Of a stretch of DNA of 60,876 nt, positions 9,919-22,860 are shown in pieces. Below the pieces are notes generated by a model, which worked only from the letters and a program-made list of their open reading frames with translations, did not search any database and was not told the DNA's origin. The translations under genes were made by a program, and so were the position numbers. This DNA comes from Gammaproteobacteria bacterium. GTDB taxonomy: Bacteria > Pseudomonadota > Gammaproteobacteria > Nevskiales > Nevskiaceae. Numbering within the stretch: position 1 is the first letter of the stretch; each line of letters starts with the position of its first letter. The stretch is from contig JAPLSB010000013.1 of the NCBI GenBank assembly GCA_026398875.1, forward strand, positions 1 to 60,876, in the 5' to 3' direction.

Positions 9919-10578
9919 TCAGCCGGGGCGGACCAGATCGACCAGCTGCTCGGCCGCGCCGTCGCAGGCGGCCGACTGGGTCCGGGCAATCAGCGGAATC
10001 GGCACGATGAACGCCGGCACGTACGACGTGCCGGTGGCGCGTGACGACACCTTGCCGACGCTGGAACGCTGGTTCAGATCCCAGACCTCGGCACGGTAGG
10101 CCGACTCCTTGTCCCACATGCCGAAGCCGAAGCAGCCGGCAAAGCCCGGGCCCACGGCGCACGACAAGCCGCCGGCCGAGCCGGTGGTTTCGCTCTGGCC
10201 ATCGATCCAGATCATGTAGCGCACGCCGGCGGCGCGAATACGGGTCTCGACGCCGGGTTGGTCGAGCAGCTTCGGCAGCGCATCGGCGTTCAGCGGCGCA
10301 GTGCGCGGTTCCAGCCACGGATACAGCGCGTCGACCAGTGCCTGCTCTTCCATCACCGGCAGGCCTTCGCGCTGCAGCACGTTGGCGAGGCAACGGTTGA
10401 AATCGGTCTCGGTCTCGCGGTCACCGTGCTGGCCACGCGACAGGATCACCACCGATTCACCCTTGGCGATGCTGGCAACCCGCGTCGGCGCCTGCCGGTA
10501 CTGCTCGACCTTGGCGCTGACGCAGCCGCCCAGCACGGCGCTGCAGCCGAGATACAGCATCAGCAGTTCACGACGCAT
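9919..10578 (-). CDS. Lipoprotein, last gene of the MotA/VWA operon
   Basis: The 219-residue product has a lipoprotein signal peptide with lipobox LGGC (Cys at about residue 18). I recognise no named family. The body includes a segment with alternating strands that resembles lipoproteins of the LpoB/CsgG-N type (VVILSRG..., a Cys-containing GLSCAVGPGFAGCFGFG region), but this is a loose impression. It overlaps the preceding lipoprotein gene by 11 bases and is the promoter-distal gene of the twelve-gene block. The start at 10578 (MRRELLML) is chosen over 10617 because it opens the signal peptide. Confidence 0.8.
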   Translation of the reverse strand: MRRELLMLYLGCSAVLGGCVSAKVEQYRQAPTRVASIAKGESVVILSRGQHGDRETETDFNRCLANVLQREGLPVMEEQALVDALYPWLEPRTAPLNADALPKLLDQPGVETRIRAAGVRYMIWIDGQSETTGSAGGLSCAVGPGFAGCFGFGMWDKESAYRAEVWDLNQRSSVGKVSSRATGTSYVPAFIVPIPLIARTQSAACDGAAEQLVDLVRPG

Positions 10579-11221
10579 GACGATCTCCTGCTGCGGGTTG
10601 GGGTTCGACGGACGCACTCGGTGACCGTGCGGACGCGGCGTTCAGCAGCGACTTCAACCGCTGCGGGTCGCGCAGCTCCAGCGCCAGCCCGGCGGCGCCA
10701 TCGCGCATCGCCTTGTTCAGCGCTTCGCCCATGCCGTCCTCGGACGAGGCCAGGCTCTTGTCGCGGCGCTTGCCGTAGGCAGCAATCGGCCACTCGGCCA
10801 GCGGCTTGCCGTTGCGGTCGAGCACGGCGACCTTGTACTTGATCCAGGCTTCGAAGAATTCGGTGCGCGACTGCGCTGGTGTCGAGAACTGCACGCTGTC
10901 GATCACCGGCCGAAATACCAGATCCGCGCCGGCCGTGGCATTGCCCTTGAAGTCGGTGAACGCTGCGGCTAGCAGGTTCTTCATCCAGTCGACCGACGCC
11001 GGCCCGATCGACAGCTTCCAGGCCTTGCCGGGCGGCGGCAGCTTTTCCTCGTGCACATAGCTGCTGAACGCGGCATCGACCTGCAGCGCAGCACTCAGCG
11101 CGATCGGCTGCATCACCGGCTTCGGAAACCGCGATGGCGTCTCGACCCGGTTGGGGCCGCAGCCGGTCAGCAGCACCAGCACGGCGAGCGTCGAAACAAT
11201 GCGCTTCAGGGTCCGGTTCAT
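10568..11221 (-). CDS. Lipoprotein of the MotA/VWA operon
   Basis: The 217-residue product begins MNRTLKRIV and has a signal peptide ending in lipobox LTGC (Cys at about 21). The rest is soluble with mixed alpha/beta character and no motif I can name. It overlaps the upstream VWA gene by four bases (ATGA) and the downstream lipoprotein gene by 11, so it is translated as part of the operon. It lies next to a second lipoprotein of similar length, so the pair may act together at the outer membrane. Confidence 0.82.
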   Translation of the reverse strand: MNRTLKRIVSTLAVLVLLTGCGPNRVETPSRFPKPVMQPIALSAALQVDAAFSSYVHEEKLPPPGKAWKLSIGPASVDWMKNLLAAAFTDFKGNATAGADLVFRPVIDSVQFSTPAQSRTEFFEAWIKYKVAVLDRNGKPLAEWPIAAYGKRRDKSLASSEDGMGEALNKAMRDGAAGLALELRDPQRLKSLLNAASARSPSASVEPQPAAGDRHAS

Positions 11222-12213
11222 TGCGAAGTCTGCAGGCCAACAAAAGTGCCGCCGTTCTCTTCGGCGAGGATACGCATCAGGGTCGCAAAGCGGACGCCGC
11301 CCGGCGTCGCGCCGCTGCTGCCGTACTGCGTCGGAAAGCCGATGCCGTGGATGCGCACCTGCGGTCGGCCGCGCGCATCGCGCGGGTTGATCCGGCGCAC
11401 GGTGCGCACAACGTCGTCGATCGACGTGCCGGTGAAGTCGTCGCCGAACACGTAGATGCTGACCTTCTTGTCGGGCGCGGCAAACGTGCGGATCGCCGCT
11501 TCAATGCCTTCGACCGGGCTCGAGTTCGAAAACGGCTGCCAGCCGCGCAGCCGTTCGAGCACCGTCTTCCGCAGGCCGGGCGTGTCGGGAATCCACTGGC
11601 GGGCATAGGTCGAATACATGTACTCGCCTTCGTCGCTCATCACCTGCATGCCCTTGACCTTCGGGTAGGCATTCAGCGCCTCGTTCATCTTCTGAACCAC
11701 GCTCCGCCAGGCGAACTGCTGCATCGAGCCGGAGGTGTCGATGACGAAGATCACGTACTCGCTGTCGACGGGAATGCCGGCCACGGCATCGCTGGCGACG
11801 CGACGCGGCTGTGTGGCCTGCAGTCGGCGCATTTCCTCGGTCAGCGTCTGCCGAGCCGTGGCAAGGCGCTCCTCGATCGTCGTCGCCACCGCCTTTTCCT
11901 CGCGGGCCTCGGTGGTCTTGTCGAGCATCGTGTCGGCCGTCAGCTTCAGGCTGGCCAGTTCGCGCCCGGCGGCGGCCTTGCCTTCGCGAGCTGCAGCGAG
12001 CTGCGCTTCCAGCGCCTCGCGTTCGGCAGCGGTTTCCTCGGCAATCTGCTGCAGCTGCGCTTCGCGGGCGGCGAGGGTGATCGGTGTCTGCTCGGCAATC
12101 ACCGGCTCGGCCGATTTGGTCAGCACCAGCAGGATGATGACTGCGCCAAAGCCGCAGCAGATGCAGTCGAGGAACGACATCCCCGATACCTCGACCTCGC
12201 GGCGGCGGCTCAC
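11218..12213 (-). CDS. Membrane-anchored von Willebrand factor A protein (second of two)
   Basis: The 331-residue protein has a basic N-terminus (MSRRRE), one membrane segment at about residues 13-32 opening with SFLDCICCGFG, a long Ala/Glu/Arg-rich coiled coil (about 45-135) and a C-terminal VWA domain from about 152. The MIDAS motif DTSGS is at 159-163. The predicted topology is N-in with the VWA domain in the periplasm. Asp16 sits at the start of the membrane segment as in ExbD/TolR/MotB. The membrane segment is nearly identical to that of the neighbouring VWA protein. It overlaps both neighbours by four bases. Inference: an ExbD-like partner of the MotA-type subunit encoded upstream in the operon. 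Confidence 0.88.
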   Translation of the reverse strand: MSRRREVEVSGMSFLDCICCGFGAVIILLVLTKSAEPVIAEQTPITLAAREAQLQQIAEETAAEREALEAQLAAAREGKAAAGRELASLKLTADTMLDKTTEAREEKAVATTIEERLATARQTLTEEMRRLQATQPRRVASDAVAGIPVDSEYVIFVIDTSGSMQQFAWRSVVQKMNEALNAYPKVKGMQVMSDEGEYMYSTYARQWIPDTPGLRKTVLERLRGWQPFSNSSPVEGIEAAIRTFAAPDKKVSIYVFGDDFTGTSIDDVVRTVRRINPRDARGRPQVRIHGIGFPTQYGSSGATPGGVRFATLMRILAEENGGTFVGLQTSQ

Positions 12214-13298
12214 GGCCAGTCCTTCGACGGTGCCAGATAGGCGCCGTCGGTCGCCCGCGCCAGCTGCCAGTAGGCACCGGCCGCCTGTGGATCGCCCTCC
12301 ATCGGCAGCAGGATGACGTTGACCGCCGGCCCCCTCGGCACGCGGCGCACCGCCTCGTTGAAGTGCTCCAGCCGCTTGCGGGCGCTGACCGCGCCGGGCT
12401 TGGACGTTGCGCCCTGCGTCGGCAGGCCATCGGTCAGCAGGAAGATCTGGTCGGGCGGGGCGCCGAGCGCTGCCACGGCGCCGAACGCGGCATGCAGGCT
12501 GGTGCCGCCGGACGGCACGATCGCGCGCAGGGCGCGCGCCGCTTCATCGAGCTTCGGCTTGCCGACCGGTTGCCAGCCGGTTCCGGTCACCGGCTTCGCG
12601 GTTTCGCTGAAGGCGATCAGCTGAAACTGGCTGCCGCTCGGCAGCTGCGAGGTCAGCCAGTCGACGGCGGCCAGTGTCCGTTTCCACTTCGGCGCATTGC
12701 GCTGCGTGGCCTCGTCGAGATTGCGGGTGCGGATCGCGTCGAGAATCGTGTACCCGAGCATGCTCGCCGAGGTGTCGACGACGATCGCGATCCGGCTGCC
12801 CTGCACCGACAGTCCGCTGAGGTACTGGCGCGTGCCGTCGCCTGCGATCTCGCGCGAGGCATTGCCCAGCGACGGCGGTGGCGTTTCGGCGGCTTGCGCG
12901 CGCAAAGCCTGCACCTTGGCATCGAGCGCGATCAATTCGGCTTGCAGCTGTTCGAGCCGCGTGCGGCTGGCGTTTTGATTGCCTTCGAGATCCGGCAGCG
13001 CAGCAGTGGCGGCCTGGATCTGCTCGCGCAGTCGCTGCGCTTCGCGGCTGGCGGTCCCGGTCGCATTGATCACCGATTCCAGCGCCGCCTTCAGTTTCAG
13101 CAGCTCCTGCTTGCCATCGAGCACTTCCGCTTCGCTGGCATCGACCTTGGCGATCAGTTCCTCGTTGCCACGTTGCGAGGTCTGCCGGCTCGCGTGGTTG
13201 ACGATCATGAACATCAGGATCACCGCACCGAAACCGCAGCAGATGCAGTCGAGGAACGACAGGCCCTGCTCGGCCGGCATGCGCCGCTTGCGACTCAC
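12210..13298 (-). CDS. Membrane-anchored von Willebrand factor A protein (first of two)
   Basis: The 362-residue protein has the same plan as its neighbour: basic N-terminus (MSRKRR), a membrane segment at about 14-33 with the shared SFLDCICCGFGAVI opening (Asp17), a coiled coil at about 43-138, and a VWA domain from about 168. The MIDAS residues are D175, S177 and S179 (DTSAS), with GGTS and LTDG further on supplying the Thr and Asp positions. The protein is longer than its paralogue in the coiled coil and in the VWA C-terminus. Four-base overlaps link it to the Hsp70-like gene before it and the second VWA gene after it. Confidence 0.88.
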   Translation of the reverse strand: MSRKRRMPAEQGLSFLDCICCGFGAVILMFMIVNHASRQTSQRGNEELIAKVDASEAEVLDGKQELLKLKAALESVINATGTASREAQRLREQIQAATAALPDLEGNQNASRTRLEQLQAELIALDAKVQALRAQAAETPPPSLGNASREIAGDGTRQYLSGLSVQGSRIAIVVDTSASMLGYTILDAIRTRNLDEATQRNAPKWKRTLAAVDWLTSQLPSGSQFQLIAFSETAKPVTGTGWQPVGKPKLDEAARALRAIVPSGGTSLHAAFGAVAALGAPPDQIFLLTDGLPTQGATSKPGAVSARKRLEHFNEAVRRVPRGPAVNVILLPMEGDPQAAGAYWQLARATDGAYLAPSKDWP

Positions 13299-14554
13299 GC
13301 ACGCGACCCCTGCACGTGGATCACGCGGACCGTGCCCTGTGGCGTGTCGAGCAGCTGTCCAACCACCAGCAGCGCATCGCCCGAGCGCAGCCGATAGCCG
13401 TCATTGTCGATCAGCAAGACCAGCCCGAGCACGGTGTGCGGTCCGTTACCGGAGCGCGCAGGCAATGGATGCGCAACGTCACCGACCAGCAGATGGGTCG
13501 GTTGCAGCGTCACCGCAGATGGCAGCGGCGCAGCGGTCGCTGCATCGGCGATGCTGCGGGCCGGCAGCCGGGTCACGAACGGCAGCGCCTCGCCATCGGC
13601 GCGGATGCGGGCGGCGTGCAGCAGTGCGCCCCGAGCCACCGCCAGCGCATCGAGCGCCTGCGGCTGCACGCCGGTGGCTGCCGCAATCGCGTCCGACAGC
13701 CCAGGCACTGCCGCCGCACGGGCACCGAGCAGCACGGTGGTCCGGGCCGGGTCGGTCATCGCGGCGGCAACGCCCGCTGCAAGCCGGCTCGACAGCGCCG
13801 CGAGCGCGCCATTCAGTGCATCCGCCGGCAGGCTGGCGCGGTGGCTGCGCAGCCCGGCCGGCAATTCCAGCGTCACCGCCACGCCGCGGCCAAACTGCGT
13901 CAGCCAGCCCGGCAGCCGGTCGTACAGCGTCTGCTCGGTGGCGGCGCTGTGCAGCGGATCGAAGCGCGTCTGGCGCACGAAGGCTTCGGCGATCACGCCG
14001 GCGCAGGCATCCCAGACCGCAAGCAAACCCGGCTTGGCCAGATCCTCGCCACCGCTGCGGGCAATCTCTGAGCCGGCGCGCATCCGGGTCAGCCACCAGC
14101 GATGCAACTGGACATCGAGGTGCAGCACGGTCGGCTGTACATCGACAGTACTGGCGGCCGCGACAGCGGCATCGACCAGCCCCACCGCGTCGAGCCTGGC
14201 GGCCCGTGCAAGCGCCAGCAGCAGGCTCAGCTGCCCCGAATCGAAGCTCGACGGCACGGCCAGCAGCAGCGCGCCATCGGCACCAGCAGCCTGCAGGCCC
14301 GACAGCTGCGCCCACGCCAGATCGGCATGGCTGCGGGCCTCGCCGAACGGCGCATCGAGCGGTGCCTGATCGAGCTGATACCAGTACCGGAACTGCGCCT
14401 TGCGCGGCAGGGCGCGGAACTGCTGGCGCGCAGGCTCGCCGAACAGCAGCCGGCGACCATCGAGCAGCGCGAAGCCGGGGCTGCCGATCTGCACGCGTTC
14501 GGCATCGGCGACCGTCAGCGCGGCATCGTTGAATTCGAGCACCTGCATGGTCAT
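13295..14554 (-). CDS. Degenerate actin/Hsp70-fold ATPase-like protein
   Basis: The 419-residue product shows the layout of the Hsp70/actin superfamily without its usual phosphate motifs. In order: a short strand near the N-terminus (VLEFNDAALTV), a segment AVPSSFD...QLSLLLALARAA...GLVDAAVAAA that matches the Hsp70 region around VPAxF...A AGL...EPxAAA, a second strand VLHLDVQLH where DxGGGT would be, and a C-terminal VLLGARAAAVPGLSDAI matching the adenosine-site GGSSxxPxxxxxI. A basic or glycine-rich nucleotide loop is not evident, so it may not hydrolyse ATP. No signal peptide is seen, so it should be cytoplasmic. The start at 14554 overlaps the MotA-like stop as ATGA. Function unknown; likely a cytoplasmic regulator of the channel complex. 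Confidence 0.78.
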   Translation of the reverse strand: MTMQVLEFNDAALTVADAERVQIGSPGFALLDGRRLLFGEPARQQFRALPRKAQFRYWYQLDQAPLDAPFGEARSHADLAWAQLSGLQAAGADGALLLAVPSSFDSGQLSLLLALARAARLDAVGLVDAAVAAASTVDVQPTVLHLDVQLHRWWLTRMRAGSEIARSGGEDLAKPGLLAVWDACAGVIAEAFVRQTRFDPLHSAATEQTLYDRLPGWLTQFGRGVAVTLELPAGLRSHRASLPADALNGALAALSSRLAAGVAAAMTDPARTTVLLGARAAAVPGLSDAIAAATGVQPQALDALAVARGALLHAARIRADGEALPFVTRLPARSIADAATAAPLPSAVTLQPTHLLVGDVAHPLPARSGNGPHTVLGLVLLIDNDGYRLRSGDALLVVGQLLDTPQGTVRVIHVQGSRA

Positions 14555-15348
14555 GGCACCTGCAGATGCTGGATCAGCTTGCGCTCGCAATAAGCGCGGG
14601 TGTCGAGTGTCAGCCGCTCCTGGATCAGCTGCAACTGGTAGAGCATGAACATCAGCACGATCGACAGCAGCAGCGCGATCAGGGTCGAGTTGAAGGCCAC
14701 ACCGAGCGCTTCGGTGACACCTGCGATGTCGCCTTCGACCGCCTTGTGCGCCTGCGATAGCGCATCGCCGATGCCACGCACGGTGCCGATGAAGCCGATC
14801 GACGGAATCGCCCAGGCGATGTAGCGGACCATCGACAGTTCGGAGTCGAGGCGGTCGCCTCGGGCATCGCAGACGCTGTCGACCGCCGACGACACGTCCT
14901 GGATGCTGCGCGTCGAACGGAAGCGGCCGAGTGCGGTCAGCAGCGCCTGCGGCAGCAAGCGCTCGCGGTCCTCGGCCGGCAACGCTTCCAGTGCCCGGGC
15001 GTATTGGCGGGCGTCTTCGGGAAGGATGCTCTGGCCTTCCGCGAGTTCCAGCAGATCGGTCTCGAACATCCGCTGCTCGGCCACCGCCAGCTTCGCCTTC
15101 CAGCCCATGATCGCGATGCCCCAGAGCGTCAGGATCACCTCGGCTTCCTGTTCCCAGTCCTTGAGGATCACCCACAGCGACGTTTCGATCACGGCGGCCG
15201 GGTCGGCCTTGATCGCTGCCGCCTGTGCCAGCAGGATCGCGGTCGCGTTCGGCCGCACGACGCCGGCATAGAACGCATGGATCACCACGACGATCAGCAG
15301 CAGCGACAGGACCTGATAGACGAACTCGGCGGGAAAGCTGCGTTTCAT
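14551..15348 (-). CDS. MotA/TolQ/ExbB-type proton channel subunit
   Basis: The 265-residue protein has four predicted membrane segments (about 10-30, 71-88, 176-198, 219-240) with a large cytoplasmic loop between the second and third. The family core is clear: AIPSIGFIGTVRGIG (179-194), containing Thr189 of the GTV motif, and GVAFNSTLIALLLS (216-229) with Ser221/Thr222 at the second channel-lining position. Such proteins form pentamers that energise an ExbD/TolR/MotB-type partner with the proton gradient. No ordinary exbD/tolR gene follows; the two VWA genes with an Asp-bearing membrane segment occupy that role in the operon. Confidence 0.92.
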   Translation of the reverse strand: MKRSFPAEFVYQVLSLLLIVVVIHAFYAGVVRPNATAILLAQAAAIKADPAAVIETSLWVILKDWEQEAEVILTLWGIAIMGWKAKLAVAEQRMFETDLLELAEGQSILPEDARQYARALEALPAEDRERLLPQALLTALGRFRSTRSIQDVSSAVDSVCDARGDRLDSELSMVRYIAWAIPSIGFIGTVRGIGDALSQAHKAVEGDIAGVTEALGVAFNSTLIALLLSIVLMFMLYQLQLIQERLTLDTRAYCERKLIQHLQVP

Positions 15349-15368
15349 GGAGGACTCGGGGTTCGGGA

Positions 15369-15644
15369 TCAGATGTCGCCGGGGAAATCGACAGCCGCAT
15401 CGGCCGACACGTCGACGCTCGGCTTGCTGCCGACCGGTGACGGTGCCGAAGCGGGTGCGGATTCTGTGGCCGGGGCCGGCTGCGCGGCATCGGCCGGAGG
15501 CGGCACGACCGCAGGTGCTGCGTCCTGCGCGGTCACCGCGCGGGCGGCGCCGACCATCACGGCGGCGGTGATGCCGATCAGCACCAGCCGCGCCAGATCG
15601 GCACGCTGCTGACGGCGGAAATTGCGTTTCGGCTTATTCGACAT
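15369..15644 (-). CDS. Small membrane or secreted Pro/Ala-rich protein
   Basis: The 91-residue product has a basic N-terminus (MSNKPKRNFRRQQR), one hydrophobic segment at about 18-36, and a tail rich in Pro, Ala, Ser and Asp. It could be a bitopic membrane protein or be cleaved near the AxA at about 37. No family is recognised. The start at 15644 overlaps the end of the PEGA-FGE gene by 11 bases, and the gene ends 20 bases before the MotA-like gene, so it sits firmly inside the operon. Confidence 0.72.
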   Translation of the reverse strand: MSNKPKRNFRRQQRADLARLVLIGITAAVMVGAARAVTAQDAAPAVVPPPADAAQPAPATESAPASAPSPVGSKPSVDVSADAAVDFPGDI

Positions 15645-17682
15645 AGCGGGCCACCCTGAAGCCAAGATCATCACGCGGCTCGCCGGCGTGGTCGCGCCAG
15701 GCGAGGCGCAATTCGGTGATGCGGCCGTGCCGCCAGCTTGCGCCGCGCACCACATGTTCGGCGCCGCTGGCCGGTCCGAACGGATCGTTCGCAGCGTTCA
15801 GCGACGGCACCAGCGCGCCGTCGTAGCGGTCGTGAACCCATTCGGAAACATTGCCGCCGAGATCGTACAGGCCCGGCGCGATCGCCAGACCCTTGCCGAC
15901 CGGGGCCGTCGCGGCATAGCCATCGTCGTAGCCGTCCAGCACCTGGTTGACCAGGGTGGCGGCCTTCGCATCGGCGAAGTTGCCGCTGTCCGGTGGCGGC
16001 GGCATCGCGTTGCCCCAGGGGTAGCGGCGCGGGGCGCCGTCGCCGTGGAAGCGCGCGGCCCATTCCCATTCGGCTTCGGTTGGCAGTCGGTAGCCGGTGG
16101 TCAGCGGCTGCACGAGGCTGCCATCCGCGTTGTACGCCGCTGGCAGGCCGTCCTTGCCGCTGAGCCAGTTGCAGAACGCCACCGCGTCGTTCCAGCTGAC
16201 CCGAACCGCCGGATGGCCTTCGTTGTCGAGCGAGACCCGCAACACGATGCCGGAGCTGTGGCCGCTGCGGAACTGCCGGTACTGGGCGTTGGTGATTTCG
16301 GTGGTGGCCAGATAGAACGGCCGGGTCAGCCGCACGGCGCGCTGCACCTCGTTGGCCTGTCGGCCCTGATCGCTGCGCGCCGTGCCCATCGTGAAGCTGC
16401 CGGGCGCGATCTTGCGCAGCCTGAGCCCCAGCGTTGCGCTGCTGATCAGCGCTGGATTCGCTGCTGCCTTCAGCTCGGCCTCGCTGCCGAGCACGACATC
16501 AAGCTTCTGGTCGACGCCACGGCGAACCGTGATATCGCTGCCGTATGGCCGGTAGCCGGGCTTGCTGACTTCGATGCGGTGCGTCGTCGCCGATAGTTCC
16601 AGGCGGCCATCGCCGAGCGGCCGGACCTCGCCATCGATGCTCAGGCGTGCATCGGCCGGCGTCAGGCTCAGGCGCAGCACGCCGAGAATCGGCTTCAGGC
16701 TGAGCGCCAGCGTTTTCCGCTCGTCGGCCGCCAGGCTCAGGCTGGCCTCCGCGTTCTCGTGACCGTCACGGCTCAGCAGCAGTTTGTGGGTCGCACCCGG
16801 GCTCAGGTTCAGGCTCAGCGGCGTGCGGCCACGGAATGCGCCGTCGACCGTCACCGAAGCACCCGCTGGCGTGCTCGACAGCTGCACCGTCGCATCGGCC
16901 GATTCGAGCAGCACCTCGGGCAGCGTCTGCGGCTGATTGGCGACCACCAGCACCGGCAGCCGGCGTGGCTTGTAGCCGGGCAGGCGGAATTCCAGCTCGA
17001 CGGCGCCGGCACCGAGTTCCAGCCGGGCCGGTGTGGTGCCCTGCGGCTGGCCGGCAATGCTCACTTCGGCACCGGCGGGCCGCGACGACACGGTGATCGG
17101 CGCCCAGCCCGGCTTCAGCTCGACGCTCAGTTCCTGAAGCTTGCCGAGGCCTTCGATATCGATGTCGATCTGCTGCGGCTGATGACGCGCGGCGCTCAGG
17201 CTCAGCTGATGACGGCCAGCGGGCAATTCCAGTGCCTCCTGCGGCGTGTTGCCGTATGGCTTGCCGTCCACGCTGATCGCGGCGACCGGCGTCGATACCA
17301 GCTTCAGCCGTCCCGGCAGCTTGTCCAGCGTGAACGTGGCTTCGCGGCTGTCGTCGGTCACGACCAGCGCAGCGTCCAGCGGCCGGTAGCCTTCCTTGCG
17401 GGCGTCGATCCGATATTCGCCGCTGCGCAGCAGATGGCGGTTGCCGAGCTTGATCGCGATGCCGCCGGATACATCGAGCGAATCCGGTTCCGGCGTCACG
17501 GTGATCGCGACGGCACGCGCCGTCAGCAGGAACCAGGCGATCGGCAGCAGCACCAGCAGCACCGCCGCGATCACCAGCAGCGCCGGCGATGGCCGCAACG
17601 ATCGACCGGGCTGGCCATTGCTGCCGAAGCTCGGCGGCCGGTATTCGGCCGGCTGGATCACGTCTTCACGGTCGCCACTCAC
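15634..17682 (-). CDS. Membrane-anchored PEGA-repeat protein with C-terminal FGE-sulfatase-like domain
   Basis: The 682-residue protein has a cytoplasmic N-terminus of about 33 residues, one membrane segment (about 34-55), then about five PEGA-type beta repeats to about 410 (recognisable by VxSxPxGAxVxxxGxxxGxTP and LxxGxHxLxLSxxGY). Residues from about 425 to the end form a formylglycine-generating-enzyme (SUMF1) fold: PGSFTMGT, TEITNAQYR, RLPTEAEWEWAAR, YPWG, LGGNVSEWV and HVVRGASW. The catalytic cysteines of true FGE are absent (RGASW rather than a Cys-bearing motif), so this is a binding or structural version. PEGA repeats are usually extracytoplasmic. Overlaps of four and eleven bases join it to its neighbours. 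Confidence 0.88.
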   Translation of the reverse strand: MSGDREDVIQPAEYRPPSFGSNGQPGRSLRPSPALLVIAAVLLVLLPIAWFLLTARAVAITVTPEPDSLDVSGGIAIKLGNRHLLRSGEYRIDARKEGYRPLDAALVVTDDSREATFTLDKLPGRLKLVSTPVAAISVDGKPYGNTPQEALELPAGRHQLSLSAARHQPQQIDIDIEGLGKLQELSVELKPGWAPITVSSRPAGAEVSIAGQPQGTTPARLELGAGAVELEFRLPGYKPRRLPVLVVANQPQTLPEVLLESADATVQLSSTPAGASVTVDGAFRGRTPLSLNLSPGATHKLLLSRDGHENAEASLSLAADERKTLALSLKPILGVLRLSLTPADARLSIDGEVRPLGDGRLELSATTHRIEVSKPGYRPYGSDITVRRGVDQKLDVVLGSEAELKAAANPALISSATLGLRLRKIAPGSFTMGTARSDQGRQANEVQRAVRLTRPFYLATTEITNAQYRQFRSGHSSGIVLRVSLDNEGHPAVRVSWNDAVAFCNWLSGKDGLPAAYNADGSLVQPLTTGYRLPTEAEWEWAARFHGDGAPRRYPWGNAMPPPPDSGNFADAKAATLVNQVLDGYDDGYAATAPVGKGLAIAPGLYDLGGNVSEWVHDRYDGALVPSLNAANDPFGPASGAEHVVRGASWRHGRITELRLAWRDHAGEPRDDLGFRVARYVE

Positions 17683-19262
17683 AGCTTGTCCTCGCAGCGA
17701 ATCTGCACCGGCGCGGTTGCCGCGTCGGCACGGACCTCGAATTCGACGCGCACATCGACATAGCCCGGCCGAGCGCCGACGGCGGTGTAGCGGCCGGGCT
17801 TCAGCTGCAGCCGCTTGTCCTTGAAACGACCTTGCGGGCCAACCTTGTAGAGCGTCACTTCAGTCTTTTCGTCCGATTGCAGGCTCACGTCCTGCGCTGT
17901 TGCTGCTGCGCGCAGCAGACGATCGAGCGCGCCGATCTGCTGCTGCAGCACCGGGCCGGGTGCTGCAATCGCGCGGGCCTGTGCGAGTCCCTGACTGGCA
18001 TCGGCGTGCACCGATTCGCTGGCCAGCCGGGCCGGCTGTGCGATCCAGGCCGCCAGCCGGGCGGCGAGGGTAGCTCGTGGCCGCGCTATCGCCAGTCCGG
18101 ACTGAGCGGCCGCGAGGCTGGGATCAAGCGCCAGCACTGCTTCGTAGTGCTCGATTGCCGCTGACCAGTTCTCGGCAGCGACCGCTGCCGCCGCCTGCGC
18201 TTCGCGCGCCGAGAGCTGCTGCTCGCGGCGGGCGCGGTCAAGGCGGCTGCGGGCATCGGCGATGCCGGCATCGCCGGGCCGCTGGCTGGCGGCCGCTTTC
18301 AGCTCCCGCTCGGCGTCGTCGAGCCGGCCAGCGTCGAGTGCCGACAGCGCGGCGGCCATGGTCTTCTCGAAACGCGCTGAGGCGGCGCGGCCTTCGAGCC
18401 GGCCCAGCGCGGTGCGCGCTGCTTCGGTGTCCGGGTCGAGCTTCAGCGCTTGCCGCCAGGCACTGCTGGCAGCCGCAAGGTCGCCGCGCGCCTCGGCGCT
18501 GGCTGCCAACTGCAGCTGTGCCTGCACCGCAGGGAAACTGGCGACACGCGCCTGGCCGCGACGGGCCAATGCGTCGTTCGGCGCAATCGCCAGCGCCAGG
18601 TCAAAAGCTGCAGCGGCGGCATCGAGGCTGCCGGCGGCCAGTGCTGCAAAGCCGGCGGCTCGGGCGGTATCGAGCTGCCGGGCACTGTCGGCGTCGAGTG
18701 CGGCCAGCGCTGTCGCGGCAGCGCGATAGCCGTCGACGGCAGCGCGGAAATCCTTTGCATCGAAGGCCGCCTTCGCAGTGGCGATTTGCGCTTCGGCGTC
18801 GGCAAACGCGGCGGCGGCCCAGCGCTGCACGGCCTTGGCGCGCAGGCCGTCGAGCTGCTGGCTGAGCTGCGTGGCCAGGGTCTGCGCTTCCTCGCGGGCA
18901 CGCAGCAGGGCCTCGTCGTCCCAGATCGGCGCACTGCTGGCTGCTGCAGCTGGCGCGGCTGCAGGTTCACTGGCTGCCGCGGAAGCCGTTGCTTGCTGGG
19001 CCACGTTCGGAACGGGGTCAGCACCGTTGGCTTGTGCTGTCGTGGCCGGCCCGTTGGTGTCGATCACGGCCGGCAGGCCGACCAGCAGCGTCAGCGCCAG
19101 CAGCACGATCAGGCCGAGGCCGATCAGCAGCGTCCGGGTCGATACCGTGCCGCCGTCGACGCGCCGTGATGGCGTTGCCGGTGCCGTGTTCAGCGTGACC
19201 GGCGCAATGCGTTCGAAACCGTCGCCGGCAGCACCAGCGGGGTCGGAATCAGGTTCGCGCAT
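17679..19262 (-). CDS. Membrane-anchored TPR protein with C-terminal PEGA-like domain
   Basis: The 527-residue product has a cytoplasmic N-terminal stretch of about 43 residues, one membrane segment (about 44-66), an Ala/Pro-rich linker, then an alanine-rich helical region with TPR-like repeats (for example WRQALKLDPDTEAA, YEAVLALDPSLAAA) to about 430. The last 70 residues (VTLYKVGPQGRF...LKPGRYTAVGARPGYVDV) look like one PEGA domain. It overlaps the PEGA-FGE gene by four bases. The shared single anchor and PEGA module suggest both proteins stand side by side in the periplasm. Confidence 0.83.
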   Translation of the reverse strand: MREPDSDPAGAAGDGFERIAPVTLNTAPATPSRRVDGGTVSTRTLLIGLGLIVLLALTLLVGLPAVIDTNGPATTAQANGADPVPNVAQQATASAAASEPAAAPAAAASSAPIWDDEALLRAREEAQTLATQLSQQLDGLRAKAVQRWAAAAFADAEAQIATAKAAFDAKDFRAAVDGYRAAATALAALDADSARQLDTARAAGFAALAAGSLDAAAAAFDLALAIAPNDALARRGQARVASFPAVQAQLQLAASAEARGDLAAASSAWRQALKLDPDTEAARTALGRLEGRAASARFEKTMAAALSALDAGRLDDAERELKAAASQRPGDAGIADARSRLDRARREQQLSAREAQAAAAVAAENWSAAIEHYEAVLALDPSLAAAQSGLAIARPRATLAARLAAWIAQPARLASESVHADASQGLAQARAIAAPGPVLQQQIGALDRLLRAAATAQDVSLQSDEKTEVTLYKVGPQGRFKDKRLQLKPGRYTAVGARPGYVDVRVEFEVRADAATAPVQIRCEDKL

Positions 19263-19270
19263 CGTGCCGA

Positions 19271-20521
19271 TCAGGAGCCCTTGGTCTTCGCGGCCGGCTT
19301 CGGCTTCGGCGGCGGCGCCGGAAGGCCGGTCTCGATCGTGTACAGCTCGCGCAGCTGTTCACGCCACTGGCCGTACTGCTCTTCGGCCGAACCACTGAGC
19401 TTGACCGTCTTGCCGTCCAGATCGAGGTTCTGCGCCTGTACCTCGGTGCCGAGCGAGGTCGTCACTTCCTTGAGCGCCTCGGCGTGGATCTTCTTTTCCG
19501 AGCCCTTGTCCATGCCGCTCTTGAAGCCGTAGATGCCGCCGATGACGCCGAGCTGGCCGAGCGTCGACGTGCCGGCATTGTTCGCCGTCGTCGCTGCGTA
19601 GATGCCGCCGACGACGGCCGCGGCACCGAGAATCTTCCGGGTGATTTCCTGGTTGCGCAGTTCGCGATAGGCCTGCGCTTCCTTGTAGCTGGACTTGCGC
19701 CACTCCTGATAGCTCTTGCCGATGTTCTGGCGGAACGCGCCGTAGTGCTGGTCGAGCGTGTCGATCAGCAGTTCGTCGCGAGCGCGGATCTGGTCGATGC
19801 GCGCCAGGAACGGGTCACCCGCCGGCGGCAGGCGTGTCACCGAATAGCGACCGCTGCCGTCGGTCTTCAGGTATTCGCCGAAACGCGCCGGTGCCAGGTC
19901 GGCCGCGAAGCGCAGTTCGGAGACGCGGCGGATGTCCTTGAGCTTCGCTGCATCCAGCGACTTCCGTTCCTGCAGCAGATCGTTGGCGATGCGGCTGTAC
20001 AGGTCCTGGAACGGATCGCTGCCGGCGGGCAGCTTTTCGGTGTAGGCGTACTCGGCGGCGGTTTCCTCGTAGGTCTTGTCGAGCCACTTGCGACCGGTGG
20101 CGTCGGTGGCCTCGACGGCGATCTTCAGAATCTCGCCATCGCTCGCCAGGATCTTGCCGTTGATGGTCAGGTCAGCACCGGGGCTGGCGGCCGGCACGAC
20201 GCGCGCAGCACCCCAGTAGCCGCTGTCCTGCAGCGTCTGGCGCAGCACGTGGGCGATGTACTTCGATTCCGCCTCGCGCACTGCTGGCGAAATGTTTTCC
20301 TTTTCCTGCTCCTTCAGCGTGTCCGGCACGCCGGGGTCGAACGGCAGGATCGCGACTTCCAGCAACTGCTCCTGCGGCAGTTCCACCGACGCCGTCTGGA
20401 CCTTGACGCTGTTGACCTTCTTGACGGTCTGGCTGACGCAGCCGCCAAGCAGCAGGGCGGCCGCCAGCAAGCCGTGAATGGCGAGGCGCTTCGGCATTGG
20501 CAGTGCCTTGATGGTGATCAT
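19271..20521 (-). CDS. CsgG/GNA1162-like outer-membrane lipoprotein
   Basis: The 416-residue product has a lipoprotein signal with lipobox LGGC (Cys at about 28). The N-terminal half (LEVAILPFDPGVPDT, VLRQTLQDSGYWGAARVVP, ADLTINGKILASDG) has the sequence feel of CsgG-N/GNA1162-type domains, which work in outer-membrane secretion or assembly. A central Gly/Ala-rich hydrophobic stretch (about 300-340, GxxxG-like, ILGAAAVVGGIYAAT) could insert in a membrane. The C-terminus ends in a Pro/Lys tail. The start ATG at 20521 overlaps the previous stop (ATGA); an internal ATG at 20497 also precedes the signal peptide. Assignment to CsgG-like is tentative. Confidence 0.8.
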   Translation of the reverse strand: MITIKALPMPKRLAIHGLLAAALLLGGCVSQTVKKVNSVKVQTASVELPQEQLLEVAILPFDPGVPDTLKEQEKENISPAVREAESKYIAHVLRQTLQDSGYWGAARVVPAASPGADLTINGKILASDGEILKIAVEATDATGRKWLDKTYEETAAEYAYTEKLPAGSDPFQDLYSRIANDLLQERKSLDAAKLKDIRRVSELRFAADLAPARFGEYLKTDGSGRYSVTRLPPAGDPFLARIDQIRARDELLIDTLDQHYGAFRQNIGKSYQEWRKSSYKEAQAYRELRNQEITRKILGAAAVVGGIYAATTANNAGTSTLGQLGVIGGIYGFKSGMDKGSEKKIHAEALKEVTTSLGTEVQAQNLDLDGKTVKLSGSAEEQYGQWREQLRELYTIETGLPAPPPKPKPAAKTKGS

Positions 20522-21357
20522 TGCTTCTTCTTGTAGTCGCGATATTCCTTCCACAGCCGTTCGCGCAGCGCCGGGTCGGTTTCCCGTTCCGCGGCTTCGC
20601 GCAGCTGCCGGGCGACGACATCGTCATCGCGGCCATCCGGAATGTCCTTCGGGGTCGGCAGATCCGGGCGATTGCCGCGCGAACTGCGTCCGCTGTTGTC
20701 GCCGCCCGGTGGTGGTGGCGCCTGTTCGCCCCCGTCACCACCGATGCCGCCGGCCGGCGGTACGCCGCCAGGGCCACCACCCGCGCCGCCGGCTGCGCCG
20801 CCACCGCCATCACCACCGCTGCCGCCGCCCGTGTTGCGAGCCGCTGCTGCCGCTTCGCGAGCGGTTTCAAGCGCGACCTGCTCGCGCGCCAGACGCGCGT
20901 CGAAGGCTTCGAGCGATTTGTCGATCTGCTGATTGACGGCTGCGCGGCGCTCGGCGTCGGTCCGTGCGCCGTCGTCGCCTGCGGTTGCTGGCGCTCCGGC
21001 CGCGCTGCTGGCGGTCGCTGGTGATGAGGCTTTCGGTGCCGGCGTGGCACCGGTCGTGGTCTCGGCTTTCGGCTGCTGCTTCTCGCTGGCTTGATCGCTA
21101 CGTGCTTGCTTTGCGCTGGCCGGCGGTGGCGGCTTCGCGGCCGACTCGGCCTGCGATTCGGATTGCGGTGTGGCCGGCGGCTTCGACGCGGCTGAAGGCG
21201 TCGATGGCGGTGTCTGGGGCGGCGTTGATGGCGGTGTAGGCGGCGGCATCGGTTGCCGCGTCTGCGGCGTCGGCATCGATGGCGAGCTGGGCTGCGGCGG
21301 TGTGACGCAGGCCGTGATCAACGCGGACAACAACAACACTGCAAGCCGGCGGGTCAT
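20518..21357 (-). CDS. Pro/Gly-rich lipoprotein with conserved C-terminal charged motif
   Basis: The 279-residue product begins MTRRLAVLLLSALITAC, a lipoprotein signal (Cys about 17). A long Pro/Ser/Ala/Lys-rich linker leads to a short helical region (about 130-170), a Gly-rich stretch and a C-terminal segment DIPDGRDDDVVARQLREAA followed by ETDPALRERLWKEYRDYKK. That last block reads as a conserved unit and is probably the functional part, with the linker spanning the periplasm. The start at 21357 is preferred over 21384 because it opens the signal peptide. It overlaps the CsgG-like gene by four bases. Confidence 0.82.
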   Translation of the reverse strand: MTRRLAVLLLSALITACVTPPQPSSPSMPTPQTRQPMPPPTPPSTPPQTPPSTPSAASKPPATPQSESQAESAAKPPPPASAKQARSDQASEKQQPKAETTTGATPAPKASSPATASSAAGAPATAGDDGARTDAERRAAVNQQIDKSLEAFDARLAREQVALETAREAAAAARNTGGGSGGDGGGGAAGGAGGGPGGVPPAGGIGGDGGEQAPPPPGGDNSGRSSRGNRPDLPTPKDIPDGRDDDVVARQLREAAERETDPALRERLWKEYRDYKKKQ

Positions 21358-21438
21358 CGGAAGTCGGGAAGGCGGGGTCGGCATGGCGGGCAGTTCCTCT
21401 GTCGCCGGTTGGACGGCGGCAGCAGGCGCGAGTTCAGT

Positions 21439-22860
21439 TTACGACGACGGCTGGAACAGATGGCGGTAGCGAACATCCGTACGCTTCTCGGCCTGCTCGC
21501 TGCCGATTGCCGGGCGGAAACTGACTTTTGGCAGCGCCTTGCGCAGTTCAGTGAACAGGGTCTGGCCATCGGCATTGCCGGCGGGCAGCAGTTCGACCTG
21601 TTCGATGTTGCCGACTCGACCCCGCTCGTTGACCGTGAAGCGCAGTTCGAGACGGCCGCTGGCATCAATGCCAGCCTGTGCCGGCCAGTCGGTCGGCCAT
21701 TCCAGCGGCTCCGGCTGCGCCAGACGTTGTGCTGCAGCGGCATCGGCAGTGCGCGCGCGCTGCCAGACCGCCAGCGCTCGCTTGCGGTCGCCCTGCAGCC
21801 AGTGGACATCGCCGATCTGGATCAGCATCCGCGCCTGCTCGGCTGCGCTCAGCTTCACGTCGTGCTTCTTCAGCAGCCGCAAGGCCTGATTCAGCGGCTG
21901 CTCCGAGCTGTGAATGATGGTGCCGTCGCGGGTCTGGATCGCGATCGGGCGTTCGCGGAACGTGTCGATCACCTGTGCATAGACGCGCGCCTCGTCGAGC
22001 AGCGCCGGCACCAGCCGCGGGTCGTCGCGGCCATAGGCGCGACTCAGGATGTCGAGCCGGTAGGCCTGCACCTGCAGCGCCTCGCGATGGCGGTTGGTAG
22101 TGCTGTACCAGTCGGCCAACACCTTGGCGGCTTCGGCCCGCTCGACCGAATCGCCGTCGTACAGCCGCTCGGCCAGCTCGATGCGGCGCAGCTGGAAGCC
22201 ATCGGCCAGCTCCAGACGGCTGCGGCGGCTGGCAGTCAGCGTCATCGCATCGAGGTAGCCGACCTGTGCTGGCGTATGCAGGCCATCGCTGATGCGCTTC
22301 TGTTGCAGCGCGGCGGCGAAGGCGCGCTCGGCGTCTGCAGGATTACCGGCCGCCAGCAGGCTCATGCCCAGGCCGTACCAGGCCGGTTCCAGCTGCGGCG
22401 CGCGCAGGCCGCCGACAGCCGATGCCTCGTCGATCAAGGCGGTGAACAGCTCGCCGGCCAGCCGCGTCTCGCCACTTTCAAGGCTGACCACGGCGCGGTT
22501 CAGCCGGGCATCGAGCGTATGCGGATCACGCTCGCCGTGGCGCTTGGCGGCGGCGTCGACGGCAGCCTGTGCCTGTGATCGGGCGACATCCAGCCGGCCG
22601 CTGGAAAACGCCTGCTGCAATGCCGGGAACGTTGCGGCCGCCGCCGAATCGGCTTGCGGCGCATGCAGCGTCAGCGCCGGCAGACGGGTTTTCGGCTGCG
22701 GCGGATCGATGTAGATCGGTGTGCTTGCCGGTGCCGCCGGTGCAGCGCCGATGCCGGTCAGCGGCAGCAGCATCAGGCTACCCAGCAGCACGCCGCGCAG
22801 CTGCCTGACCAGGTGCTTTCGGCCGTCGGCACGCGGCCGGTGGAGGTGGAGATCGATCAT
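21439..22860 (-). CDS. Secreted TPR protein with TonB-C-like end; first gene of the MotA/VWA operon
   Basis: The 473-residue product has a basic N-terminus and a signal sequence (about 20-40), then a helical TPR-type region (LVEALGERD-like spacing; phrases such as HGERDPHTLDARLNRAVV) and a C-terminal 90 residues (QAGIDASGRLELRFTVNERGRVGNIEQVELL) that read like a TonB C-terminal domain. The start at 22860 (MIDLHLHR) is chosen because the sequence upstream has no family character. It is separated from the next gene by 81 bases, the largest gap in the block, so it is either the first operon gene or separately expressed. Confidence 0.8.
   Translation of the reverse strand: MIDLHLHRPRADGRKHLVRQLRGVLLGSLMLLPLTGIGAAPAAPASTPIYIDPPQPKTRLPALTLHAPQADSAAAATFPALQQAFSSGRLDVARSQAQAAVDAAAKRHGERDPHTLDARLNRAVVSLESGETRLAGELFTALIDEASAVGGLRAPQLEPAWYGLGMSLLAAGNPADAERAFAAALQQKRISDGLHTPAQVGYLDAMTLTASRRSRLELADGFQLRRIELAERLYDGDSVERAEAAKVLADWYSTTNRHREALQVQAYRLDILSRAYGRDDPRLVPALLDEARVYAQVIDTFRERPIAIQTRDGTIIHSSEQPLNQALRLLKKHDVKLSAAEQARMLIQIGDVHWLQGDRKRALAVWQRARTADAAAAQRLAQPEPLEWPTDWPAQAGIDASGRLELRFTVNERGRVGNIEQVELLPAGNADGQTLFTELRKALPKVSFRPAIGSEQAEKRTDVRYRHLFQPSS

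Follow-up and report, generated by a model that had tools for sequence, protein, structure and literature searches.

Ion-driven 5:2 motors power flagella, the Ton system and the Tol-Pal system. In PMC9389320, GldLM from the gliding system of Bacteroidetes is classed with these motors as well, and passages of PMC12421860 describe PorK as a protein with the fold of the formylglycine-generating enzyme (FGE) but without its Cys pair, which serves as the hub of a ring adjacent to a motor driven by protons. Moreover, parts of a study published in 2025 (PMC12204202, Mol Biol Evol) describe TolQ-like genes together with heterologous TPH-vWA pairs, a proton-binding Asp in the pore helix and no ExbD, and present AlphaFold 3 (AF3) models which place the vWA helices and their Asp in the TolQ-like pentamer. 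According to that study, deletion phenotypes have not been reported for its first vWA family; for the second family, to which these pairs belong, none is given in section 8. Here, a DNA stretch of 60,876 nucleotides (the window; contig JAPLSB010000013.1 of GenBank assembly GCA_026398875.1, Gammaproteobacteria bacterium, family Nevskiaceae) was analysed, whose contig (C9) is part of a 4.15 Mb genome that is 95% complete. The window carries twelve genes, g1 to g12, which are all located on the minus strand and run from position 22860 down to 9919. They probably encode one proton-driven motor spanning the cell envelope, in which a ring of ExbB-like subunits would drive the turning of two paired VWA proteins, and these would act on an outer-membrane assembly of an FGE-fold protein and lipoproteins. 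Throughout, we infer proton use, movement, rotation, load, stoichiometry, the outer-membrane ring, gating and purpose.

Conservation of the operon as one unit

At eight of the eleven junctions the genes overlap, six times by 4 bases and twice by 11, and the other three junctions are gaps of 54, 8 and 20 bases, which bears out the tight twelve-gene minus-strand operon described in the earlier note on this DNA. A scan for promoters and terminators returned 0 and 4 sites, respectively, which is not above shuffled sequence.

For the comparison with related loci, species-representative genomes were scanned with the g9 alignment, which yielded at least 557 relatives, and the best 80 loci were analysed. 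These loci are the nearest relatives rather than a random draw and also supplied the sequences for the family models, and presence was counted only where the contig offered enough room by set distance thresholds. The genes g7, g8 and g10, which flank g9 wherever the contig has room, were present in 72/72, 73/73 and 76/76 loci, followed by g5 (67/68), g4 (61/62), g3 (58/60) and g2 (58/60), and by g6 (67/70), g11 (67/73), g12 (64/70) and g1 (53/60). The least certain calls are those for the TPR gene g1 and the short g6. Of 55 long loci, 45 show exactly the gene order of the window from g1 to g12. Most of the 80 loci belong to Halieaceae and other Gammaproteobacteria, and the carriers include the culturable, non-pathogenic strains Chromatocurvus halotolerans DSM 23344 and Panacagrimonas perspica DSM 26377; single metagenome-assembled genomes are labelled Myxococcales (L094), Deltaproteobacteria (L101) and Desulfobacterales (L103). 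L094 and L101 are without g1, g11 and g12, and L103 is without g1, while its contig stops before the g11 position.

Independent of these loci, co-occurrence was determined in 274 Gammaproteobacteria genomes drawn evenly, with matches accepted at an expectation value (E) of 1e-10 or better. Matches to g9, g3 and g8 were found in 20/274, 19/274 and 11/274 genomes, respectively. g9 and g3 were shared by 18 genomes versus 1.4 expected (hypergeometric 5e-25), and all 11 genomes with g8 also carried g9 (hypergeometric 1e-14), kinship being ignored in both values. The check for co-occurrence of the ExbB-like, both VWA and the Hsp70-like genes was thus run, and independent scatter was clearly not seen. 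The order in the 80 loci and the co-occurrence of g9, g3 and g8 rule out a chance cluster, and the proposal of one conserved unit stands on both.

In nine of the 20 genomes with g9 no g8 match was found, and g7 was located directly beside g9 in all nine, which rules out g8 as an essential part. The assignment of the Hsp70-like gene to the machine therefore holds for the related loci, where it was found in every locus with room, but not for the irreducible core. A sample of 249 genomes of the phylum contained 14 with g10 (E 1e-20), and 12 of these belong to one family outside the class; in all five of these 12 that were examined g2-g3-g4-g5-g7-g9-g10 were present. Since this set recurs without g8 and also outside Gammaproteobacteria, the core consists of these seven genes, and g8, g6, g1, g11 and g12 are additions.

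Several loci deviate from the common arrangement. In L069 g3 follows g10, in L128 g7 follows g10, and L094 carries g2 to g5 on the opposite strand. In genome G271 (L126) g9, g8, g10, g5, g4 and g2 lie together and g7 lies on another contig; g3 was not found in this genome. In G146 g9 is located on a 4.6 kb contig, and g3 was likewise not found in the genome. In the single-contig genome G243 (L127) g3 is broken by a stop, g4 is in pieces, and no g7 or g9 was found in the genome; this locus is a decayed copy.

Only 3 of 18 genomes of the window's genus carry g9, and the system is therefore patchy. Two close g8 homologues, 78% and 73% identical, are named Nevskia sp., which makes a Nevskia-like gammaproteobacterium the probable host. 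A search of 5.8 billion proteins with the g10 relative of L115 gave matches for 7953 of 8000 pre-selected candidates, by which the g10 family appears to be common; the named entries among the best 120 matches listed are called 'hypothetical protein', and a few entries in this list carry the label Methylophaga or Crenotrichaceae.

The proposed motor core

The channel subunit of the MotA/TolQ/ExbB family is encoded by g7 (14551..15348; this and all following gene positions on the minus strand). Its match to PF01618 (E 4.2e-13) lies over the Pfam cut-off with 49.6 versus 22.9 bits, 73/73 relatives contain AFNST and a GT[VI]RGIG-type motif, and its profile weakly matches TolQ structures (E 0.034-0.037). 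The gene g9 (12210..13298) encodes VWA1, which is composed of an Asp-bearing N-terminal membrane helix, a coiled-coil-like stretch and a VWA domain (VWA_3, E 1.6e-9), and g10 (11218..12213) encodes its paralogue VWA2 with the same layout (hhalign with the g9 family, E 1.3e-25). The window's g9 and g10 have one hydrophobic N-terminal segment each, and the Asp of the membrane helix was found in 80/80 g9 and 78/78 g10 relatives, so that both proteins fit the single N-terminal helix with an invariant Asp of ExbD/TolR/MotB-type rotor helices. The DxSxSM metal-site pattern is present in 78/80 g9 and 76/78 g10 relatives; further site patterns are less regular, namely GT[SN][LM] (52/80 and 74/78) and the TDG type (76/80 and 61/78).

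For g9 and g10 no match to Pfam ExbD (PF02472) was obtained at E 0.1. Homology of the VWA N-termini to ExbD found no support, as the hhalign profile comparison was not significant; therefore only a likeness of layout and Asp is claimed. The 13 ExbD matches of the genome are all located off the window's contig, and 12 of them have another ExbB match at a distance of at most 1 kb. The remaining ExbD-family gene, at C24:102446-102817, has no ExbB match nearby. The assumption that g7 has no ordinary ExbD partner elsewhere thus holds for the contig and for the 12 genes near another ExbB, but pairing of g7 with C24:102446 is conceivable. This gene and the missing profile link to ExbD would suit a puller of the TonB/TolA kind, with the VWA proteins at the side of the g7 ring and g7 using an ordinary ExbD from elsewhere, and a part of PMC12204202 reports a different vWA family with such a side layout. 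However, according to the same part, this family is marked by an SHLS motif and has TolR-like genes in synteny in the PVC group, whereas the helices studied here carry Asp and no ExbD is present on the contig, which leaves the puller very unlikely.

The turning motor, which we favour, agrees in its core with the arrangement described in the parts of PMC12204202 considered here: a MotA/TolQ/ExbB subunit, two different vWA proteins with one Asp-bearing helix each, and no adjoining ExbD/TolR. An adjacent TolQ-like gene, a heterologous vWA pair and the absence of a syntenic ExbD were all found in the operon. The likeness to the Idiomarina set shown in that study is one of arrangement. Within the open-licence literature searched, the vWA-TolQ pair turned up in this paper only. 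The earlier note knew of no described system with such a set of genes; this does not hold, as the pair of a TolQ/ExbB-like gene with heterologous vWA genes was published in 2025, and the motor core is therefore not new. The main text of PMC12204202 has no match for the words PEGA, Hsp70, formylglycine, kinase or CsgG, and its sole 'fha' belongs to FhaC, so that the other genes of the operon are not described there by those words. By these word matches, the FGE-fold scaffold, the FlgT/PelC/CsgG/TolB-fold lipoprotein and the pseudo-Hsp70 with its FHA-like tail and kinase link go beyond that main text.

An ExbB/MotA-type subunit is also shared with the Zorya defence motor, and PADLOC gave a weak match of g7 to ZorA (E 0.005), as an anti-phage device with a motor coupled to an effector would lead one to expect. 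Unlike Zorya, no ZorB, ZorC or ZorD match was obtained for ten of the twelve proteins (g1 and g2 were left out), and no nuclease or helicase was found by Pfam among the twelve. Furthermore, the gene order is kept across many loci, whereas a shuffled context is usual for defence genes, and we regard a Zorya-kind device as extremely improbable. Zorya and the other PADLOC systems were rejected, as they gave weak matches only; those of g9 and g10 lie mostly in the coiled-coil stretch, with JetC and LmuB among the proteins matched. When the g10 profile was compared with PDB sequences, only the coiled-coil stretch gave matches under 0.01, two in number.

Lipoproteins and the FGE-fold protein

Upstream of the motor genes lie four core genes for envelope proteins. 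g2 (20518..21384) encodes a proline/glycine-rich lipoprotein with the lipobox ITAC. The lipoprotein encoded by g3 (19271..20521) consists of a FlgT/PelC/CsgG/TolB-N-like domain (residues ~46-195), a long helix and a glycine-rich hydrophobic segment. Its periplasmic domain is predicted to adopt the CsgG/FlgT/PelC/TolB-N fold, among the matches listed, by which the CsgG-like lipoprotein proposed before is supported at the level of the predicted fold; no CsgG-type Pfam match was found in 18 g3 family members at E 0.1. The putative membrane part of g3 is predicted as helical with low confidence. LpoB was rejected for g3 (13.8 bits versus a cut-off of 110.55, residues 18-53 only), as was a common family of g3 and g12, for which hhalign aligned 21 columns at the signal peptide. 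FlgT, PelC and CsgG form rings, and g3 would resemble them in its predicted domain fold; unlike in their systems, no flagellar, Pel or curli gene was found by Pfam among the twelve genes.

The protein encoded by g4 (17679..19262) is a membrane-anchored TPR protein (TPR_11, E 1.8e-9), and g5 (15634..17682) encodes a protein with a membrane anchor, four PEGA repeats (E 1e-40) and an FGE-fold domain (FGE-sulfatase, E 4.7e-43). The best NCBIfam match of g5 is GldK/PorK with E 1.7e-34, which is below the cut-off (119.9 versus 350 bits). The active-site Cys pair of FGE is missing in the window's g5, which has one Cys only, and among the 66 g5 relatives that exceed 600 aa, 48 have a Cys count of 0 or 1. 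No lipobox was found in g5. Because the lipoproteins g2, g3, g11 and g12 have no Asp at position +2, we infer their placement in the outer membrane.

As in the type IX secretion system (T9SS) with PorLM/GldLM and PorK/GldK, a presumably proton-driven motor adjoins an FGE-fold protein without the Cys pair. Unlike in T9SS, g5 has a membrane anchor and PEGA repeats but no lipobox, and VWA proteins replace GldM; no GldL, GldM or GldN match was found by NCBIfam among ten operon proteins scanned. In common with Tol-Pal and Ton, a ring of the ExbB/TolQ type would work with outer-membrane partners, g3 shares the predicted fold of the TolB N-domain, and some g1 relatives end in TonB_C, whereas the operon is without ExbD/TolR and the twelve proteins gave no TonB/TolA or Pal family match. 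The predicted fold of the g3 domain, the likeness of the FGE-fold domain to PorK and an M48-like protease gene after g12 in many loci also fit a machine dedicated to export across the outer membrane, akin to T9SS or to the curli and Pel systems, with g3 as exit or collar and a motor powering release. Such a machine is nevertheless unlikely, as no translocon barrel or obvious substrate was found by Pfam among the twelve proteins and helices are predicted, with low confidence, for the putative membrane part of g3.

The pseudo-Hsp70 protein and its link to kinase and FHA domains

The cytoplasmic protein encoded by g8 (13295..14554) was assigned as a pseudo-Hsp70 with a degenerate FHA-like C-terminus by AlphaFold 2 (AF2) and fold search; its predicted fold is that of the Hsp70 nucleotide-binding domain, among the matches listed. 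Two phosphate-loop patterns were found in 0/77 g8 relatives and the GG-P adenosine pattern in 1/77, and none of the three occurs in the window's g8. The notion of an Hsp70-fold protein without phosphate motifs is thereby upheld by predicted fold and pattern search. FHA was detected by Pfam in 5/10 g8 relatives scanned, and the g8 family profile matches FHA structures at E 0.003. Additionally, 5/9 g4 relatives scanned contain an N-terminal Ser/Thr kinase (Pkinase, best E 8.9e-40). Among 61 loci, counted after leaving out those with g4 of at most 450 aa or g8 of at most 380 aa, a kinase domain or remnant in g4 accompanied the FHA-like tail of g8 in 7/7 loci with the tail and in 0/54 loci without it. 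In the window itself, no kinase domain in g4 and no recognisable FHA in g8 were found by Pfam. In L101 the g4 relative (L101:1521-4529) starts with an iron-alcohol-dehydrogenase-like stretch (Pfam E 1.6e-31) and has no clear kinase; its start was taken mechanically and the fusion is only putative, and the g8 of this locus keeps FHA.

PEGA and TPR domains are common in sensory proteins, and most loci with a kinase or an FHA domain have both. Both points speak for a sensor and signalling complex. Its TPR, PEGA, VWA and lipoprotein components would keep watch on the state of the envelope, which the ExbB-like ring with its Asp helices, gated by protons, would report to g8 (FHA) and, in loci that have it, to the kinase. 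However, the core recurs without g8, and a cytoplasmic output through g8 is therefore not essential; moreover, neither the Asp nor the g7 motifs vary across the 80 loci. A mainly sensory role thus seems improbable.

Accessory and neighbouring genes

The accessory gene g1 (21439..22860) encodes a secreted TPR protein (TPR_12, E 4e-13). TonB_C was found in 4/12 g1 family members scanned (best 1.7e-5) and is absent from the window's g1. g6 (15369..15644) encodes a small membrane or secreted protein with an FPxDI-like end; FPx[DE]I forms the C-terminus in 66/69 relatives and is possibly a docking tail. The accessory lipoproteins are encoded by g11 (10568..11221; lipobox LTGC, no Pfam family over cut-off) and g12 (9919..10578; Cys19 invariant in 11/11 aligned, no Pfam family).

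Downstream of g12, a metalloprotease-like gene of one sequence group is present in 48/80 loci (L024-L103); a strict metalloprotease pattern was found in 29 loci, 28 of which have the gene start between -73 and +76 bases from the g12 end. We take this gene to be M48-like from its HExxH and NPxTG-type motifs. It was not found after g12 in the window. Such a neighbour is in keeping with work on the envelope but is no proof of it. Among the genes flanking the operon, those assigned to a Pfam family are a fatty acid desaturase gene and a YaeQ gene, both on the opposite strand.

Proposed mechanism and significance

In the motor that we propose, a ring of five g7 subunits would enclose one helix each of g9 and g10, protons would pass by the two Asp of these helices, and the periplasmic VWA heads would move. 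The lipoproteins g2, g3, g11 and g12 would sit in the outer membrane, where g3 may form a ring like its fold relatives FlgT, PelC and CsgG, and the PEGA-FGE protein g5 and the TPR protein g4 would constitute a periplasmic scaffold or load, like the FGE-fold PorK in T9SS. In kinase-bearing lineages, phosphorylation read by the FHA domain of g8 may act on the motor from the cytoplasm, either engaging or releasing it. Due to the fact that in the window g4 is without kinase and g8 without recognisable FHA, g8 would act in this lineage as a constitutive clutch or scaffold. As a first guess, the cellular purpose may be driven export at, or remodelling of, the outer membrane. More tentatively, the operon may represent a separate class distributed over several bacterial classes: a proton-turned heterodimeric VWA rotor (5:1:1) with a T9SS-like plan and other rotor parts, an FGE scaffold, a ring of FlgT/CsgG-fold lipoproteins and a pseudo-Hsp70/FHA clutch that is set by a kinase in some lineages.

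The locus would thus add a further motor to the ion-driven 5:2 motors, with a parts list that is conserved as a whole and can be tested as a unit. If this is true, Ser/Thr phosphorylation and an Hsp70-fold protein devoid of ATP motifs would be coupled to a proton motor, and the FGE fold would be used for a second time as a mechanical hub.

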